Assembly: GCA_004292785.1 (NCBI GenBank)
Contig: RDXG01000207.1
Coordinates: 1-33,407 of the forward strand
Direction of reading: 5' to 3'
DNA: 33,407 bases
Source: Bacteroidota bacterium
GTDB lineage: Bacteria; Bacteroidota; Bacteroidia; Cytophagales; Thermoflexibacteraceae
Below the pieces are notes generated by a model. That model saw only the letters and a list, made by a program, of their open reading frames with translations. It had not been told where the DNA came from and made no database searches. A program made the position numbers and the translations under genes. Below are positions 1,708 to 33,407 of this stretch, piece after piece (position 1 is the stretch's first letter; the number at the start of each line of letters is the position of its first letter).

Positions 1708-3318
1708 TTAATGTGCCGCAACTGTTTTTTGCCTATCTTTCCCGCCCAAATAAGGACATTCTAGCAATTTTTTCATGTTCTCAAAAGGAACAATCGCCTT
1801 TTCATATTGGTAAGTTTTGAACAAAGGTTCAGTTTGCCCATGCCCGCCGTTTCCAACACTTACGTCATTCATGGTCATTTGCGAAGGGTGTTCGTAGCCG
1901 CAAGCGTGAGCAATTTCTAAAATTTCTTTGCGCAAAGTTTTGGAATAATTGTAAAAACGCACCGCTTTGTTGGCAGGATCAAGCCCCGACTCTAACCATT
2001 TGTTTTGCGTAGCAACTCCCGCAGGACAGCGGTTGGTGTGGCAAACTTGCGCCTGAATACAACCAATAGACATCATGGCTTCTCGTGCCACATTGATCAA
2101 ATCTGCGCCCATTGCAAAAGCCATCAAAGCCGTAGCAGGAAAACCAATTTTGGCAGAGGCAATAAAAGTAATGTCTTTGCACAAATCGCGTTTCAAAAAT
2201 ACTCTGTAAACATCTGTAAAAGCATAAACAAAAGGCAAAGCCACGTGATCGGCAAAAGCAGGCGGCGCAGCTCCTGTGCCTCCTTCTCCTCCGTCAATCG
2301 TAATAAAATCAGGTCCCTTTCCTGTGCTTTTCATCAAATCCGCCAACTCTTCCCACATTCCCATTTTGCCTACTGCCGATTTGATTCCTACGGGCAAACC
2401 TGTTCTTTCTGCAATCAATTCAATAAAATCGATCATGCTCGGAATGTCTTTAAAAGCAGTATGATAGGAAGGCGAAATTACATCTTTTCCCATCACCACT
2501 CCTCTAATTTCTGCAATTTCAGGCGTAATTTTTTTGGCAGGCAAAACGCCTCCCTTCCCTGGTTTTGCTCCTTGTGAAAGTTTGATTTCGATCATTTTCA
2601 CAAAAGGATTTTTTTCGATCAAAGCCGCCAATTTGTCGATATTAAAACTTCCATCTTCGCTTCGGCAAGCAAAATAGCCTGTACCAATCTGAAAACAAAC
2701 ATCTGCTCCGTAACTGTGATAAGGCGAAAGTCCGCCCTCGCCTGTGTTGTGAAAACAACCCGACATTTTCGCGCCTTTATTCAAAGCAGTCAAAGCATTT
2801 GCCGAAAGCGAACCATAACTCATGGCAGAAATATTGACGATAGAATACGGTCTGAACGGTTTTTTACGATTGTGTGGCAATCCGATCACTTTGGCGCAAG
2901 GTGCAAAATAAGGGTCAGAATGGTTTGGGTGGTCGTTTTTGACAGGAAAAGGAAACAAAGTTGGACTAATAAAAATGTGTCCAGGGTGAAACAAATCTTT
3001 GTCCGTTCCAAAACCCTGATAATTGTTTTCCGATTTGGAAGAAGCATAAACCCAAGCGCGTTGGCTACGATTAAAAGGCAATTCTTCGCGGTTGTTGGCA
3101 ACAATATATTGCCTTAATTCAGGACCGATGGCTTCGAGCATATACCTAAAATGCCCTACCACAGGAAAATTATTTTTGATGGTTTGCTTTTTTTGTCGCA
3201 AATCTCGGATCGCAACAATGATCACAAAGATCACAAAAAAGATAAAAAAGTAAAAAAACCAGTGTACGTCTGCTATTTTGTCCAAAAAAGCCTCGTAAAT
3301 ATCAATCAAGTGCTGCAT
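1708..3318 (-). CDS. FMN-binding glutamate synthase family protein with N-terminal transmembrane segment
   Basis: 536 aa; GltB2-type domain with MSYGSLSANALTALNKGAKMSGCFHNTGEGGLSPYH, ITIDGGEGGTGAAPPAF and CHTNRCPAGVATQ. Confidence 0.9.
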   Translation of the reverse strand: MQHLIDIYEAFLDKIADVHWFFYFFIFFVIFVIIVAIRDLRQKKQTIKNNFPVVGHFRYMLEAIGPELRQYIVANNREELPFNRSQRAWVYASSKSENNYQGFGTDKDLFHPGHIFISPTLFPFPVKNDHPNHSDPYFAPCAKVIGLPHNRKKPFRPYSIVNISAMSYGSLSANALTALNKGAKMSGCFHNTGEGGLSPYHSYGADVCFQIGTGYFACRSEDGSFNIDKLAALIEKNPFVKMIEIKLSQGAKPGKGGVLPAKKITPEIAEIRGVVMGKDVISPSYHTAFKDIPSMIDFIELIAERTGLPVGIKSAVGKMGMWEELADLMKSTGKGPDFITIDGGEGGTGAAPPAFADHVALPFVYAFTDVYRVFLKRDLCKDITFIASAKIGFPATALMAFAMGADLINVAREAMMSIGCIQAQVCHTNRCPAGVATQNKWLESGLDPANKAVRFYNYSKTLRKEILEIAHACGYEHPSQMTMNDVSVGNGGHGQTEPLFKTYQYEKAIVPFENMKKLLECPYLGGKDRQKTVAAH

Positions 3319-3384
3319 AAATTGGTTTAGGGTTTAGAATTTATTTGAAATATACAAAAATTGATCTAATTATTCCTATTTTTT

Positions 3385-3462
3385 TAGGACTTACGCAAAA
3401 TGTATCGCAAACAGGAATGTTTGCGGTACAGGCTTCAAAATTTAAGATTTGCGTAAGTCCTA
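3385..3462. mobile_element. MITE-like nested inverted repeat, non-coding
   Basis: Perfect 15-bp outer arms taggacttacgcaaa (3385-3399) / tttgcgtaagtccta (3448-3462). Inner stem tgtatcgcaaac (3401-3412) / gtttgcggtaca (3419-3430) with one mismatch. No ORF inside. Confidence 0.55.
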
Positions 3463-3580
3463 TTTTTTGCAACTATATTTAATAATTTTCAAACCCCAAA
3501 CCTCAATTATTGGCTATTTTACTTTTATACTATATTTTTTTGATGCAATGATTTGCTGGAAATTAATGCACCATTAGCTT

Positions 3581-4153
3581 TTACTTTCGCCAATATCTTG
3601 GAAGATTCATTGATTTGGCAAATGGCTGGCAAGGCTGATAATTTGCAATAAATTGCAACATTTTGTTGGTATCATCTTCAAAAACAATGTGATAATCCTC
3701 GTGTATTTTTTCTAGTTTTTTGAGGACAAAATCTGCTTTTTTTACTACATATTCGGCAAAATTCTCTGCTCTTTTGGCTTTTTGAGCAAGCATATTTGGG
3801 TGTTCGGCAAAAGCGTGGTTTACCAAACACAAAGTAAGTTCTATTTCGCCTAATTTGTCTTTTGTAATTTTTACATGGCGAGTAATGTTTCCGTTCATAT
3901 CGCGCATTTCCATCATTAACAAGCCTGGAGTATCGCTATAAGAATTGTTGTTTTCAGTACCCAAATATTTTTGGATATGTGCCAAAAGTTCACTTCTTTT
4001 GTTTTTCATATCTTCTTCTCCTTCAAGGAGTTGATGTTGTAATTGAGCTATTAGCATGAAATCTTTGGCAATGAGTCTTAACAAAAGTTTGTTTTTTTCT
4101 TTGTCAGGCATTTCCAAAATTGCCAATTTAAGATCGTCAGATATTTTAGCCAT
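3581..4153 (-). CDS. Hypothetical protein (190 aa, helical, Lys/Glu-rich)
   Basis: Complete ORF MAKISDDLKLAILEMPDKEKNKLLLRLIAKDF... with no recognised domain. Confidence 0.65.
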   Translation of the reverse strand: MAKISDDLKLAILEMPDKEKNKLLLRLIAKDFMLIAQLQHQLLEGEEDMKNKRSELLAHIQKYLGTENNNSYSDTPGLLMMEMRDMNGNITRHVKITKDKLGEIELTLCLVNHAFAEHPNMLAQKAKRAENFAEYVVKKADFVLKKLEKIHEDYHIVFEDDTNKMLQFIANYQPCQPFAKSMNLPRYWRK

Positions 4154-4194
4154 TTTTTTTTATTTAAAAATATTAAAATAAAATTAAAGCGTTT

Positions 4195-4288
4195 TAAGTA
4201 AGTAGTAAGACAGTTTAAAAGTACAATTTTATATAACAGACAAAAACAGACTAAAGTCTGTTGTACATTTATTTTGAGTTCTTACTTA
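4195..4288. repeat. TAAGTAA-bounded intergenic repeat element with central palindrome acagactaaagtctgt
   Basis: TAAGTAA 4195-4201, palindrome 4246-4261, TTACTTA 4282-4288. Its reverse complement aligns with 5672-5715. Confidence 0.5.
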
Positions 4289-4665
4289 TTAATCAAACTA
4301 AGAATGTATTTTTTTGCCCATTTCAACATTTTTACAATTTCATAAATGTCGTCTTGGGTGGCATCAAAATTTTTTGTTTTGGCGTATTCTTTGCCTTCCA
4401 AAACCAAAAAACACCACATACAACCAAAAGTATATAAACCAATCATGGGTTTCTGATCCTTATTTTTGGCTTGCGCAGCAATCATGCTTGCCAATAATTG
4501 CCCAATGGGTTCGTGTTGGTTGAATTGGAGTTTGTATTCATTCAGAAAAAAATAGGGCGTAATTGGGTACTGAACGCCACTTGCGACCAGTAATTCGACT
4601 CGCCCACGCAACATTCCTGTATTCCCAAATTTGTCTGTAACTTCTGCTTTCTGCCCAAGCATCAC
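4282..4665 (-). pseudogene. C-terminal fragment of a PD-(D/E)XK-like hypothetical protein, out of frame with its apparent N-terminus fused to prmA
   Basis: LRGRVELLVASGVQYPITPYFFLNEYKLQ...HEPIGQLLASMIAAQAKNKDQKPMIGLYTFGCMWCFLVLEGKEYAKTKNFDATQDDIYEIVKML resembles the C-terminal half of a family whose N-terminus looks like KPFEKWAFQEVEETFGISRVQKLPLLESWL in the preceding frame. Confidence 0.5.
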
Positions 4666-5659
4666 TAAAAATGCTTAATCTTTCTTGCAAAGGCACTATT
4701 TTTTCGCGATCTTTTTCTGTAATTTCTTCCGTATTATTGAGCCAAGATTCTAACAAAGGCAATTTTTGTACCCTCGAAATGCCAAATGTTTCTTCTACTT
4801 CTTGAAAAGCCCATTTTTCGAAAGGCTTAAATTTGAAACGCAAGGCGCACCAATCATTTTTTAATTTTTGCGATTCGAAAATTAGCCCGAATTTTTTGGC
4901 GTGATCTTGCAAAGTCAAACTGTCTTTTTCGTAGAAACCACTGATGAGCAAAATGCCGTTTGTTTTCAAAATTTTAGCGTATATTTCCATTTCGTCAAGC
5001 AAAACATTTAACTGAATATTAGCCAAAACCACATCATAAAAATCGGTTTGGTAAATAAAAAGTTCGACTGTTCCTTGTTCTATATAAAACTTCATTTGGT
5101 TTAAGGCTGCATTTTCTCTTGAATTTTCTATTGCCCACTCTTCAATGTCGCAAGCATTGACCAAATCCGCTTTCATTTTTTTGGCTAAAATTCCCAAAAT
5201 GCCTGTTCCACAACCCAAATCAACCACTCTTTTGTCTTTAATTTCTGTTTCTAGTTCAAATTCCAGCATCAATGCGGTAGTTTGGTGGTGTCCTGTGCCA
5301 AAAGACATTTTTGGATTGATCAAAATTCGATGCTCAAAATTGCCTTCGATTTTGTGAAAATCGGCATGAATAAAAATTTTGTTTTGAACGATGATCGGAT
5401 CGTAATTTCGTTCCCAAAGCTCATTCCAATTTTGTTTTTCAACAATTTTTTTGTCAAAACCAATATTTTCCACCGATTCGTAACGGCTAAAAATTTCTTG
5501 GACTTCGGTTTCAGAATAAATATCGGACTCGATGGAAGTTTCAAAAGATTGATCATCAATATCCAAAAAAATATCGAAACCAATTTGGGACAATTCGGCT
5601 TTCAAAATTTCTGAAAACTCGCTTTCTGCCTTGACTGTAAGCACTGTAAAATGACTCAT
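4538..5659 (-). CDS. prmA: Ribosomal protein L11 methyltransferase (PrmA), with a non-PrmA C-terminal extension after about residue 275
   Basis: MSHFTVLTVKAESEFSEIL...NPKMSFGTGHHQTTALML...VVDLGCGTGILGILAKKM...DVVLANIQLNVLL...NDWCALRF. ATG chosen at 5659; the listed ORF extends upstream without homology. Confidence 0.85.
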   Translation of the reverse strand: MSHFTVLTVKAESEFSEILKAELSQIGFDIFLDIDDQSFETSIESDIYSETEVQEIFSRYESVENIGFDKKIVEKQNWNELWERNYDPIIVQNKIFIHADFHKIEGNFEHRILINPKMSFGTGHHQTTALMLEFELETEIKDKRVVDLGCGTGILGILAKKMKADLVNACDIEEWAIENSRENAALNQMKFYIEQGTVELFIYQTDFYDVVLANIQLNVLLDEMEIYAKILKTNGILLISGFYEKDSLTLQDHAKKFGLIFESQKLKNDWCALRFKFKPFEKWAFQEVEETFGISRVQKLPLLESWLNNTEEITEKDREKIVPLQERLSIFSDAWAESRSYRQIWEYRNVAWASRITGRKWRSVPNYALFFSE

Positions 5660-5673
5660 TTTTAGATTTTTAA

Positions 5674-5756
5674 TAAGTAAACAGAAAAATAAATGTAACA
5701 CAGACTTTAGTCTGTGGATAAATAAAAATATTGAAAAAATAATTGGTTTTAAGTAA
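5674..5756. repeat. Related TAAGTAA repeat with central palindrome acagactttagtctgt
   Basis: TAAGTAA 5674-5680, palindrome 5700-5715. aataagtaaacagaaaaataaatgtaacacagactttagtctgt aligns with the reverse complement of 4246-4290. Confidence 0.45.
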
Positions 5757-5809
5757 TGGAACATATTTATCCGACACCTCAAAGGTGTCGGATAATTACA
5801 TTTTACTTA
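5750..5809. repeat. TAAGTAA...TTACTTA element with hairpin ttatccgacacct-caa-aggtgtcggataa
   Basis: Termini TAAGTAA 5750-5756 and TTACTTA 5803-5809; 13-bp perfect stem at 5767-5795. Confidence 0.6.
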
Positions 5810-5838
5810 GAAAACAAAATTAAGCATTTTTTTTGTTT

Positions 5839-7959
5839 TTACAACTGAATCCGCAAACCAGGACCCAACACAAAAAACCATTTTTCCTCTTTGATCATAT
5901 ACCCAAAACCTGCGTACAAAGGCAGGCTCAATTTTACGTCTTTTCGGGTTGGGAAAACTGAACCCAAAACCACCACCGCCAAATCTCGGTTAGTGCTGTT
6001 GTCATTTAGGTTAAAAACATTGAAAGCAAGCGTTCCAACCCCGATTCTGTAAGGTTGCAAACGTTCTATTTTATCGTTTTTATAAAACTTAAATTGTGCC
6101 AAAACCGACATACTCACGCCGTTAAAACTTCCGTAACCTTGTTCGCCTAACTTCTTGACTATCAGCCCGCCAGGAAAAGAAAGATCGATATCAAAAGAAT
6201 ATTTGCGTTTCAAAATAATTTCTATTTTTTTGCTGAATGTTTTTTGGTTTGGATAAGCACTTTCTTTGTGTTTAAACGTAATTTCGATGCGTGACCATTC
6301 GTCTAAATCATGAGTTTTTCGAGCCAAATAAGTATTTAAACTAATCATATTTTGCTGACAATCTGTTCTAACATACAATTTTCCACGCAAAGAATTTTCT
6401 GATGGACAAACGACCACATTTTCAATTGTGTTAATTTCTACGAGTTGGTTTGCCTTGTTCATAATTTTTACATCAATCGTTAAATGTTGTTTTCCTACAA
6501 AATTTTCGGCAGAATCTAGCTTTTCGGGCAAAAAACTAATCGTAATATCGCGGATAGTTTTGGAATATAGCAAAGGTTGCGTAAAATCTTTCAAAGGCAT
6601 TTTTTCATCACCCAAATCAATTTGAATAAAATCCAATTCGCTTGCTTTTTGGTATTCGCTAATGTTTAAAGCATAAGAAGTGGCGTTTTCGTGGTTGTAA
6701 AGCGTGATTTTGCGGCTTGCGATTTGGCTTGGAACTTTGAGATCATAAATCACCACATTGTCAGTTTTTATGGTTGAATCGGTTTTGAGGTCGAGTTGGC
6801 TTTCAAACTGAAAATTACTTCTACTCAATCCTTGCCCTTCAATTTTTAGCGAAATATTTTCGTTTGGGAAAACGGTCAAGTTAGTAGTCCATTCCGATTT
6901 TTCTCTTAAAATACTGATTTTTTCGATGTTTGTTTTGTGAACAATATCAAAATTAGTAATAAATTTGGCTTGATCTCCGTCTTTGATATACAAATATCCG
7001 TCTATTTTTCGGTGGTAAGTATAAAAACGCAACCAGCACAAAATGCGGTTATTGGTGAGTCGGCTTCGAGTAAAAATTTCGCCAAGCAAGGCACCTCCTG
7101 CCGATTCTTGCTTTTCAATTCTGTAGGTTTTTTCTAATTTCAGTCCTCTGGTATCATCTAACTGTATTTCAATTCCTTGATTTGCTTTGTCGTCCAAAAT
7201 GACTTCATTGGGTTCGACATTCAAAAATGCCAAACGGCTCGATTTAACCTTAAAAGTATGTTTGAGTTCCGTAAAATCGTAAATTGGACGTTTTCTTTCG
7301 TCTAAAAAAGGCTTAAAAATGCTTATTTTTAGGTTTAAATCTATATTTCCTGTTACGTTTGGAATGACGTGCAATTTGAGTTTTCCGTTGTTTTTTGTAA
7401 TTTTATAGTCCATTTTTTCGCTAGTAACCCACATTTCTTGCGTTCTGATGTTGTTTGACAAATTCGAAATCAAATCAAAAGTTTTTTCTTCTCCAATAAA
7501 TAATTCTTCTGGCGGTGTCTGAAAACCTATTTCGGTTTTAGCATAAGGAAAAAGTGGAATTTCGCGCAAAAACTCGTATTCAGAAGTTTTGATCTTAAAA
7601 ATAAAAGTCAAAAATTGGCTTTTGGTCAAATTTTTAAACTTGATTCGAGTTTTAAAATATTCTTCTTCCAAAAAAATCAAAGAATCCAAAATTTCGTAGT
7701 CCGCAGAAGGTTGTAAACTTATTTTTTGGATATTAGAAAATCTGGTAAAAATTCGTATTTCTACTATTTCTTCTTCTTTTTGGTAAGAAAAAGCCAAAAA
7801 TCTGTTATTTTGATAACGAATTTGGTCTTTTTTCCAAGAAAAAACGCTAGTATCAATTTTCAATTCTAAATCTTTTAACCAATCTTCTGCTCTTTGTGCA
7901 AAAATATTTTGCGCAAAAATTATCGTTAAAACTGCCAATAAAAATATTTTTTTGAACAT
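5839..7959 (-). CDS. Secreted or envelope hypothetical protein (706 aa) with signal peptide and beta-rich C-terminus
   Basis: N-terminal MFKKIFLLAVLTIIFAQNIFAQ signal peptide. Ends RKDVKLSLPLYAGFGYMIKEEKWFFVLGPGLRIQL, like an outer-membrane strand. Confidence 0.7.
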   Translation of the reverse strand: MFKKIFLLAVLTIIFAQNIFAQRAEDWLKDLELKIDTSVFSWKKDQIRYQNNRFLAFSYQKEEEIVEIRIFTRFSNIQKISLQPSADYEILDSLIFLEEEYFKTRIKFKNLTKSQFLTFIFKIKTSEYEFLREIPLFPYAKTEIGFQTPPEELFIGEEKTFDLISNLSNNIRTQEMWVTSEKMDYKITKNNGKLKLHVIPNVTGNIDLNLKISIFKPFLDERKRPIYDFTELKHTFKVKSSRLAFLNVEPNEVILDDKANQGIEIQLDDTRGLKLEKTYRIEKQESAGGALLGEIFTRSRLTNNRILCWLRFYTYHRKIDGYLYIKDGDQAKFITNFDIVHKTNIEKISILREKSEWTTNLTVFPNENISLKIEGQGLSRSNFQFESQLDLKTDSTIKTDNVVIYDLKVPSQIASRKITLYNHENATSYALNISEYQKASELDFIQIDLGDEKMPLKDFTQPLLYSKTIRDITISFLPEKLDSAENFVGKQHLTIDVKIMNKANQLVEINTIENVVVCPSENSLRGKLYVRTDCQQNMISLNTYLARKTHDLDEWSRIEITFKHKESAYPNQKTFSKKIEIILKRKYSFDIDLSFPGGLIVKKLGEQGYGSFNGVSMSVLAQFKFYKNDKIERLQPYRIGVGTLAFNVFNLNDNSTNRDLAVVVLGSVFPTRKDVKLSLPLYAGFGYMIKEEKWFFVLGPGLRIQL

Positions 7960-22210: not shown

Positions 22211-22262
22211 TTTTTGTGATGTCAAGTTCTCAAACCTTTTTGTGATGTCAGGTTCTCAAACC
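22211..22262. repeat. 26-bp tandem direct repeat, two copies (one mismatch)
   Basis: tttttgtgatgtcaagttctcaaacc / tttttgtgatgtcaggttctcaaacc. Confidence 0.75.
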
Positions 22263-22372
22263 TGACATATTTTGGTTTCTTAAAACCAAAATTGCAAGAT
22301 TTAAGAATCTTGCAACACGATCAAATTATTAGTAAAATATTTGCTATAAAAAGTCCGACTTGCGTCTGACTT
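22245..22372. repeat. Cluster of four hairpins, each with a 9-10 bp stem and a 4-nt loop
   Basis: atgtcaggtt-ctca-aacctgacat (22245-22268); attttggttt-ctta-aaaccaaaat (22269-22292); ttgcaagatt-taag-aatcttgcaa (22292-22315); aagtccgac-ttgc-gtctgactt (22351-22372, one mismatch). Confidence 0.75.
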
Positions 22373-32531: not shown

Positions 32532-33083
32532 ATGACATCAGTAGAGTTTAGCAGTAATTTGCACGAAATTTCGGCAGCTTTAAAGCCCTTTGCCTTGAAA
32601 CTTACCAAAGATAGCGAAGATGCCAATGATTTGTTACAGGAAACTATGCTCAAAGCATTTACCAATCGCGATAAATTTGCTGAAGGTACAAACTTGAAAG
32701 CATGGTTATATACCATTATGAAAAATACTTTTATTACCAACTATCAACGTTTGGTGAGAAGGAATACATTCATAGACACTACTGAAAATTTGCACTACAT
32801 TAACTCTTCGGAAAACATTACGCAAAATTTGGCGTTTTCAACTTTCGCGATGGAGGATATCAATAAAGCTATAGAAAAACTAGAGGACTCGTTCAGACAG
32901 CCTTTTATCATGCATTTTAGAGGTTTTAAATATCATGAAATTGCAGAAAAATTACATATTCCAATTGGAACTGTTAAAAACAGGATACACATTGCACGCA
33001 AACCAATTGGAACTGTTAAAAACAGGATACACATTGCACGCAAAGAACTTAAAGATCGTTTGAAAGTGTACGGCAAAAATTAA
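32532..33083 (+). CDS. ECF-type RNA polymerase sigma factor with internal 14-aa duplication in region 4
   Basis: DANDLLQETMLKAFTNRDKF, NLKAWLYTIMKNTFITNYQR, FRGFKYHEIAEKLHIPIGTVKNRIHIARK(PIGTVKNRIHIARK)ELKDRL. Confidence 0.9.
   Translation: MTSVEFSSNLHEISAALKPFALKLTKDSEDANDLLQETMLKAFTNRDKFAEGTNLKAWLYTIMKNTFITNYQRLVRRNTFIDTTENLHYINSSENITQNLAFSTFAMEDINKAIEKLEDSFRQPFIMHFRGFKYHEIAEKLHIPIGTVKNRIHIARKPIGTVKNRIHIARKELKDRLKVYGKN
32961..33044 (+). repeat. Perfect 42-bp tandem duplication
   Basis: ccaattggaactgttaaaaacaggatacacattgcacgcaaa at 32961-33002 and again at 33003-33044. Confidence 0.98.
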
Positions 33084-33121: not shown

Positions 33122-33153
33122 AACCTTGTCAAGATTTGACAAGGTTTTTTTAT
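33122..33153 (+). terminator. Rho-independent terminator after the sigma factor gene
   Basis: aaccttgtcaa-gat-ttgacaaggtt followed by a T-run. Confidence 0.85.
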
Positions 33154-33154
33154 T

Positions 33155-33407
33155 TTAAGCCTTTAAAAAACCATATTCATAAATTTTAGGCTCTATTTTG
33201 CTTGCTAAAATTTGCATTTTCTCTCGCAAAATTGCCATCAATTCGCTATATTTTTCGTCTGCACTCGACGAGTTCATTCTGCCATTTTCGTTTCTGCCCT
33301 GAAAATACTCCCGAATGTCGTACAAAGAAGCGTTTATATTTACATTTGGTTCTATCATTCCCCAAAAATTAGGTTTATTGATTTTGGAATGATAATATTT
33401 CCAAATT
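33155..33407 (-). CDS. C-terminus of an unidentified protein, partial at right edge
   Basis: Minus frame open to the window end: IWKYYHSKINKPNFWGMIEPNVNINASLYDIREYFQGRNENGRMNSSSADEKYSELMAILREKMQILASKIEPKIYEYGFLKA*. Confidence 0.6.
   Translation of the reverse strand, partial: IWKYYHSKINKPNFWGMIEPNVNINASLYDIREYFQGRNENGRMNSSSADEKYSELMAILREKMQILASKIEPKIYEYGFLKA

Follow-up and report, generated by a model that had tools for sequence, protein, structure and literature searches.

A private second copy of a 42-bp unit in the recognition helix of an ECF sigma factor gene, with an assembly artefact as its leading explanation

Close to one end of a Bacteroidota contig, the gene for an ECF sigma factor carries two abutting copies of a 42-bp unit, identical at every position and in frame, in the part that encodes the helix-turn-helix of region 4. 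The window analysed here is the entire contig C342, 33,407 bp long, taken from a draft of 391 contigs that is 89.9% complete. As far as can be judged from alignment, only this assembly carries the second copy: all 109 homologous loci have a single one. Its leading explanation is an assembly artefact, an overlap that was never collapsed; this is unproven, and we lean towards it by a modest measure. Either an artefact or a harmless recent slip is more likely than a genetic switch.

The gene runs on the forward strand from an ATG at 32532 to a stop codon at 33083 and encodes 183 amino acids as assembled. Its sigma region 2 (residues 17–74, 32580..32753) matches PF04542 in the Pfam scan with 52.2 bits for a cut-off of 24 (5.2e-14), and its sigma region 4, which includes the helix-turn-helix (residues 109–157, 32856..33002), matches PF08281 with 48.6 bits for a cut-off of 25.7 (6.3e-13). 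The sigma70-ECF model TIGR02937 is also passed comfortably (76.3 bits, cut-off 42.9), whereas the narrower NCBIfam model NF058625 (PG0214/GFO_1088 ECF sigma factor) scores 79.3 bits, below its curated cut-off of 130 bits. When a profile of the relatives was compared with solved structures, ECF factors were matched, the best being Mycobacterium SigH (5zx2). The family assignment made in the initial sequence-only reading is thus well founded, and from these matches the product is classed as an ECF sigma factor made of region 2 and region 4 only, with predicted binding to RNA polymerase and promoter. Downstream on the same strand lies an inverted repeat, AACCTTGTCA/TGACAAGGTT, which resembles a terminator and has a run of T after it (33122..33152, read from the sequence).

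The repeat itself is beyond dispute at the level of the assembled letters. Tandem Repeats Finder reports an array at 32961-33044 with a period of 42, exactly 2.0 copies, a 100% match and no indels, and the array translates in frame as PIGTVKNRIHIARK|PIGTVKNRIHIARK, so that the perfect duplication described from sequence is confirmed by program, sequence and translation alike. Copy 1 (32961..33002, forward strand) encodes residues 144–157, and copy 2 (33003..33044, same strand) residues 158–171. The copies meet at GCACGCAAA|CCAATTGGA, where a single-copy sequence would run from GCACGCAAA into GAACTTAAAG. The window has no other perfect repeat with a unit of at least 10 bp, and a perfect tandem match over 42 bp is far beyond chance. 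Pfam and the structure-profile alignment both support the unit as encoding, in region 4, the turn and the greater part of the recognition helix. The Sigma70_r4_2 match (109–157) ends on the last residue of copy 1, and the second 14-residue copy comes after it. No microhomology flanks the repeat, which extends zero bases past 2 x 42. The age of the event is poorly constrained by the perfect identity, since a stretch of 14 codons has about a dozen silent positions, among which silent divergence of several per cent could hide.

Among homologues, one copy is the rule. In the alignment, PIGTVKNRIHIARK or a near-identical form occurs once in each of 109 homologous loci, of which 29 come from related genomes and 80 from a second collection, two sets that overlap in some genomes. 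The relatives' set comes without any listed genome of the same genus, and the second-collection scan omits the window's own genome record. Of the 98 genomes searched, 94 gave a match; many of these matches are to different ECF factors, and orthologues, at 70–81% identity, make up the best loci. The 80 loci of the second collection all encode Cytophagales-type proteins, at 67–78% identity. Three of them (L059, L066 and L094) come from records titled Thalassovita, Rickettsiales and Thalassobius. These names belong to Alphaproteobacteria, yet crtI and crtB stand beside a Cytophagales-type sigma gene in each, which probably means mislabelled records or mixed bins. None of the 14 duplicated residues varies among the 42 relatives that went into the structure model. 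This comparison had been proposed in the sequence-only reading, for which a shared repeat would have meant a fixed family feature. No relative has two copies, and that candidate is ruled out by the 109 single-copy loci. The expectation that removing one copy restores a canonical protein also holds, the homologues being single-copy and the Pfam region 4 complete with the first copy.

The duplicated region 4 was modelled as well, again as had been suggested. AlphaFold2, given the window protein and 42 relatives, returned a modest model (mean pLDDT 69.7, pTM 0.41). It consists here of helix 134–141, a turn, helix 145–156 within copy 1 as the recognition helix, an interruption at P158, and then an additional helix 162–181 into which copy 2 falls with lower confidence. 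A single-copy relative was modelled with one helix over residues 145–162, of 18 residues as against the 12 of helix 145–156; its pLDDT is 84 for residues 151–160, and the successive blocks of residues 151–180 in the window protein stand at 67, 59 and 57. The doubled protein would thus retain the turn and the N-terminal portion of the recognition helix, which makes the −35 contacts in ECF factors such as SigE, while the C-terminal half would be replaced. If the repeat is real, the model makes reduced but retained activity the likeliest consequence.

What the conserved factor does is suggested by its neighbours. The phytoene desaturase gene crtI directly follows the sigma gene in 60 of the 80 homologous loci (L058-L137, around 3001-6500), crtB also follows in 54, a crtZ-like hydroxylase gene is found in 11, and a MerR/CarH-like gene lies upstream in 20, all of these names having been assigned by reading and mutual similarity and not by a family scan. 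Because crtI follows in so many loci, the conserved sigma factor is probably a regulator of a carotenoid operon. In the window, crtI is not directly downstream; the terminator-like hairpin and then a dispersed element take that place. A crtB gene with 66% identity is present on another contig of the draft, and no close crtI homologue was found in this 89.9% complete draft, the best match reaching 28%. The literature search turned up no paper on exactly this sigma factor.

The draft was then considered as a whole. Exact two-copy repeats were surveyed in 815 kb of readable sequence from the 3.7-Mb draft, window included, and in about 1.2 Mb from relatives; most of these control assemblies have a higher G+C content, and some are better assembled than this draft. 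The draft sample holds five exact two-copy repeats of 40–52 bp (42, 44, 52, 40 and 47 bp) and one of 22 bp. Besides the in-frame repeat of the sigma gene, there is a 44-bp repeat on contig C3 (L040:6165-6252), whose unit contains a start codon and leaves the protein intact, and a 52-bp repeat on C289 (L052:2087-2190). This last was at one time taken to break its gene, a reading that has been withdrawn: with the stop codon inside the unit, copy 1 already gives an intact protein. The remaining three shift the frame, at 40 bp near the C-terminus of a 1555-aa histidine kinase (C110, L188:4594-4673), at 47 bp midway along a DNA-methyltransferase-like gene (C116, L194:19058-19151), and at 22 bp near the C-terminus of HemC (C219, L217:13219-13262); the identities of these three genes were read from sequence and not assigned by Pfam. 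All six extend zero bases beyond their two units and lack flanking microhomology. Exact cases of 21 and 30 bp and two arrays also occur in the draft sample; in the same draft, a 21-bp unit is repeated about 12 times with 93% identity (L162:7181-7437).

In the relatives, no exact two-copy repeat of 40–60 bp was found in the roughly 1.2 Mb outside the G003 array (five versus none, P ~0.01), their nearest exact two-copy units being 31, 32 and 38 bp. That array, L218:3763-11135, is built of a GTCGCAATCCATCTCTTATTGAAGGGAGTACTCCGAC-like unit with some neighbouring spacers identical, and looks like a CRISPR. Within the draft, two-copy repeats with units of 38–60 bp fall into five at 100% and a next one at 81%, with none between, and the shorter tandem repeats of 20–32 bp show a spread of identities. 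Stretches within 500 bp of a contig end make up 8% of the sampled bases but contain three of the six exact repeats, at distances of 363, 433 and 487 bp (P ~0.01). These distances may correspond to about a library insert length. For the 42-bp repeat the distance is 363 bp, and the contig stops inside the end portion of a dispersed multi-copy element on the reverse strand (33149..33407). Copies of this element occur at six other places in the genome, on contigs C79, C43, C3, C173, C289 and C296 of the same draft (G000), with 74–95% identity; its reading frame ends ...ASLYDIREYFQGRNE.GRMNSSSADEKY.ELMAILR.KMQ.LA.KIEPKIYEYGFLK. Elsewhere in the window, an intergenic 26-bp unit at 22211-22263 is present in two copies that are 96% identical, and is likely a natural counterpart of the exact repeats. 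All these statistics rest on small numbers and on tests chosen post hoc, with the data already seen.

How, then, might the second copy have come to be written? Two pieces that truly overlap by 42 bp would have been joined with the overlap left uncollapsed and so written twice, and the true gene would be that of an ordinary 169-residue ECF sigma factor with a single recognition helix. Both the join and a lack of reads across the junction are supposed in this account. The artefact is favoured because the repeat has an exact two-copy form, the relatives are single-copy, the draft holds five further exact repeats, and a contig end is nearby. It is also favoured because the 40–60 bp exact repeats exceed those of the relatives, because of the gap in identity between 100% and 81% together with three frame-shifting repeats, and because the contig ends in an element found elsewhere in the genome. 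What had been a caution about the assembly has in this way acquired evidence, from repeats of similar size and their closeness to contig ends. The main rival, less probable but a serious one, is a real, recent and private tandem duplication that is tolerated. Copy 1 would complete the helix-turn-helix so that promoter recognition is kept or weakened, copy 2 would be an extra C-terminal helix, and the genome, which is AT-rich, would contain several such young tandem duplications, this one among them, not yet purged by selection. In its favour, the reading frame is preserved, copy 1 suffices for a full Pfam match to region 4, and AlphaFold2 keeps the first helix-turn-helix and sets the additional helix apart. 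The 20–32 bp repeats of varied identity moreover indicate that natural duplication occurs in this draft. Against it stand the excess over relatives, the closeness to contig ends and the invariance of the 14 residues, as well as the fall of pLDDT in the region. The missing microhomology counts against it too: no Ku was found in any of 13 genomes of the family, among them that of the window itself, and this makes end-joining unlikely as a natural route to such duplications. Ku end-joining was accordingly set aside as an origin, as was slippage between short flanking repeats, given the zero extension past two units. The artefact has difficulties of its own. The junction is free of Ns, and de Bruijn assembly depends on reads that contain it, so that a chimeric read, an error in merging pairs or a join made after assembly must be assumed. 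Furthermore, four of the five repeats of frame-shifting length keep at least 90% of their protein, for instance by falling across a stop or start codon, against 23% expected from random placement in the same contigs (P ~0.011). This resembles selection on real events, although joins biased towards gene ends could also produce it. With this excess of harmless sites, with the small post hoc tests and the unequal control assemblies, and with junction reads being needed, the artefact keeps only a modest preference, and the tolerated duplication a substantial though smaller share.

Readings in which the repeat changes the fate of the factor fare much worse. A real duplication might inactivate or weaken it by cutting the helix at a proline after 12 residues and displacing the C-terminal half that packs on the domain, as the shortening from 18 to 12 residues at P158 would suggest; and crtI having no close homologue in the draft, the regulon may be reduced. 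Yet crtB is present, the draft reaches only 90% completeness and the sigma gene is otherwise intact, which makes this very improbable. The suggestion that the duplication disables the factor was not upheld by the Pfam match or by the model, in both of which copy 1 completes the helix-turn-helix. Scarcely more credit can be given to a reversible switch, in which part of the population would lose and regain the unit by recombination or slippage and so turn the factor on and off. Adjacent identical copies are in principle able to collapse into one, and phase-variable promoter repeats have been demonstrated in tuberculosis (PMC12817950, which also reports many reference errors). Here, though, there are only two long copies, their edges lack features that favour slippage, none of the 109 loci has two or three copies, and a collapsed single copy has nothing to re-expand from. 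Since 42 is a multiple of three and the repeat lies inside the gene, a change of copy number alters neither frame nor promoter spacing, and the suggested on/off switch is not supported. A real, polymorphic duplication whose helix gain and loss would reversibly shift the promoter choice of the carotenoid sigma factor, and hence give pigment phase variation, is highly doubtful.

The distinction matters beyond this gene. If the second copy is an artefact, the draft protein should not be cited for the existence of a doubled recognition helix in a sigma factor, of which no report was found in literature searches, and the exact 40–52 bp two-copy repeats of the draft need checking before genes are called broken. 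If it is real, it offers a natural insertion test of the tolerance of region 4 at an invariant helix. The adjacency of crtI and crtB in most relatives supplies a phenotype, pigment, with which either allele may be tested.

The Cytophagales orthologues (L058, L061 and L064, for example) resemble the window protein over their whole length, with 72–81% identity (alignment A1), and share its region 2 and region 4; each has one PIGTVKNRIHIARK and most have crtI and crtB next to them, and the window differs in both respects. SigH of Mycobacterium (5zx2), SigE of E. coli (1or7) and the SigR region 4 (5fgm) belong to the same ECF architecture of region 2 and region 4. In the SigH alignment, the motif 'pigtv..r.h..r' stands at the recognition helix, aligned with the profile of the relatives. 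All three are distant homologues and, unlike the window protein, show no internal duplication in the profile matches. Among transcription regulators, rcsB of E. coli O157:H7 also offers a case of short tandem duplication (PMC5343319); that one is 5 bp long, shifts the frame and breaks the gene, with its phenotype shown, whereas the one in the window is 42 bp long and in frame. On the side of the artefact, local errors, including wrong local repeat numbers, are common in uncurated metagenome drafts (PMC7111523, Chen et al., 2020). The same study describes joins of overlapping flanks at which sequence remained in duplicate, much as proposed here; in the published case Ns lie between the copies, and in the window the copies abut.
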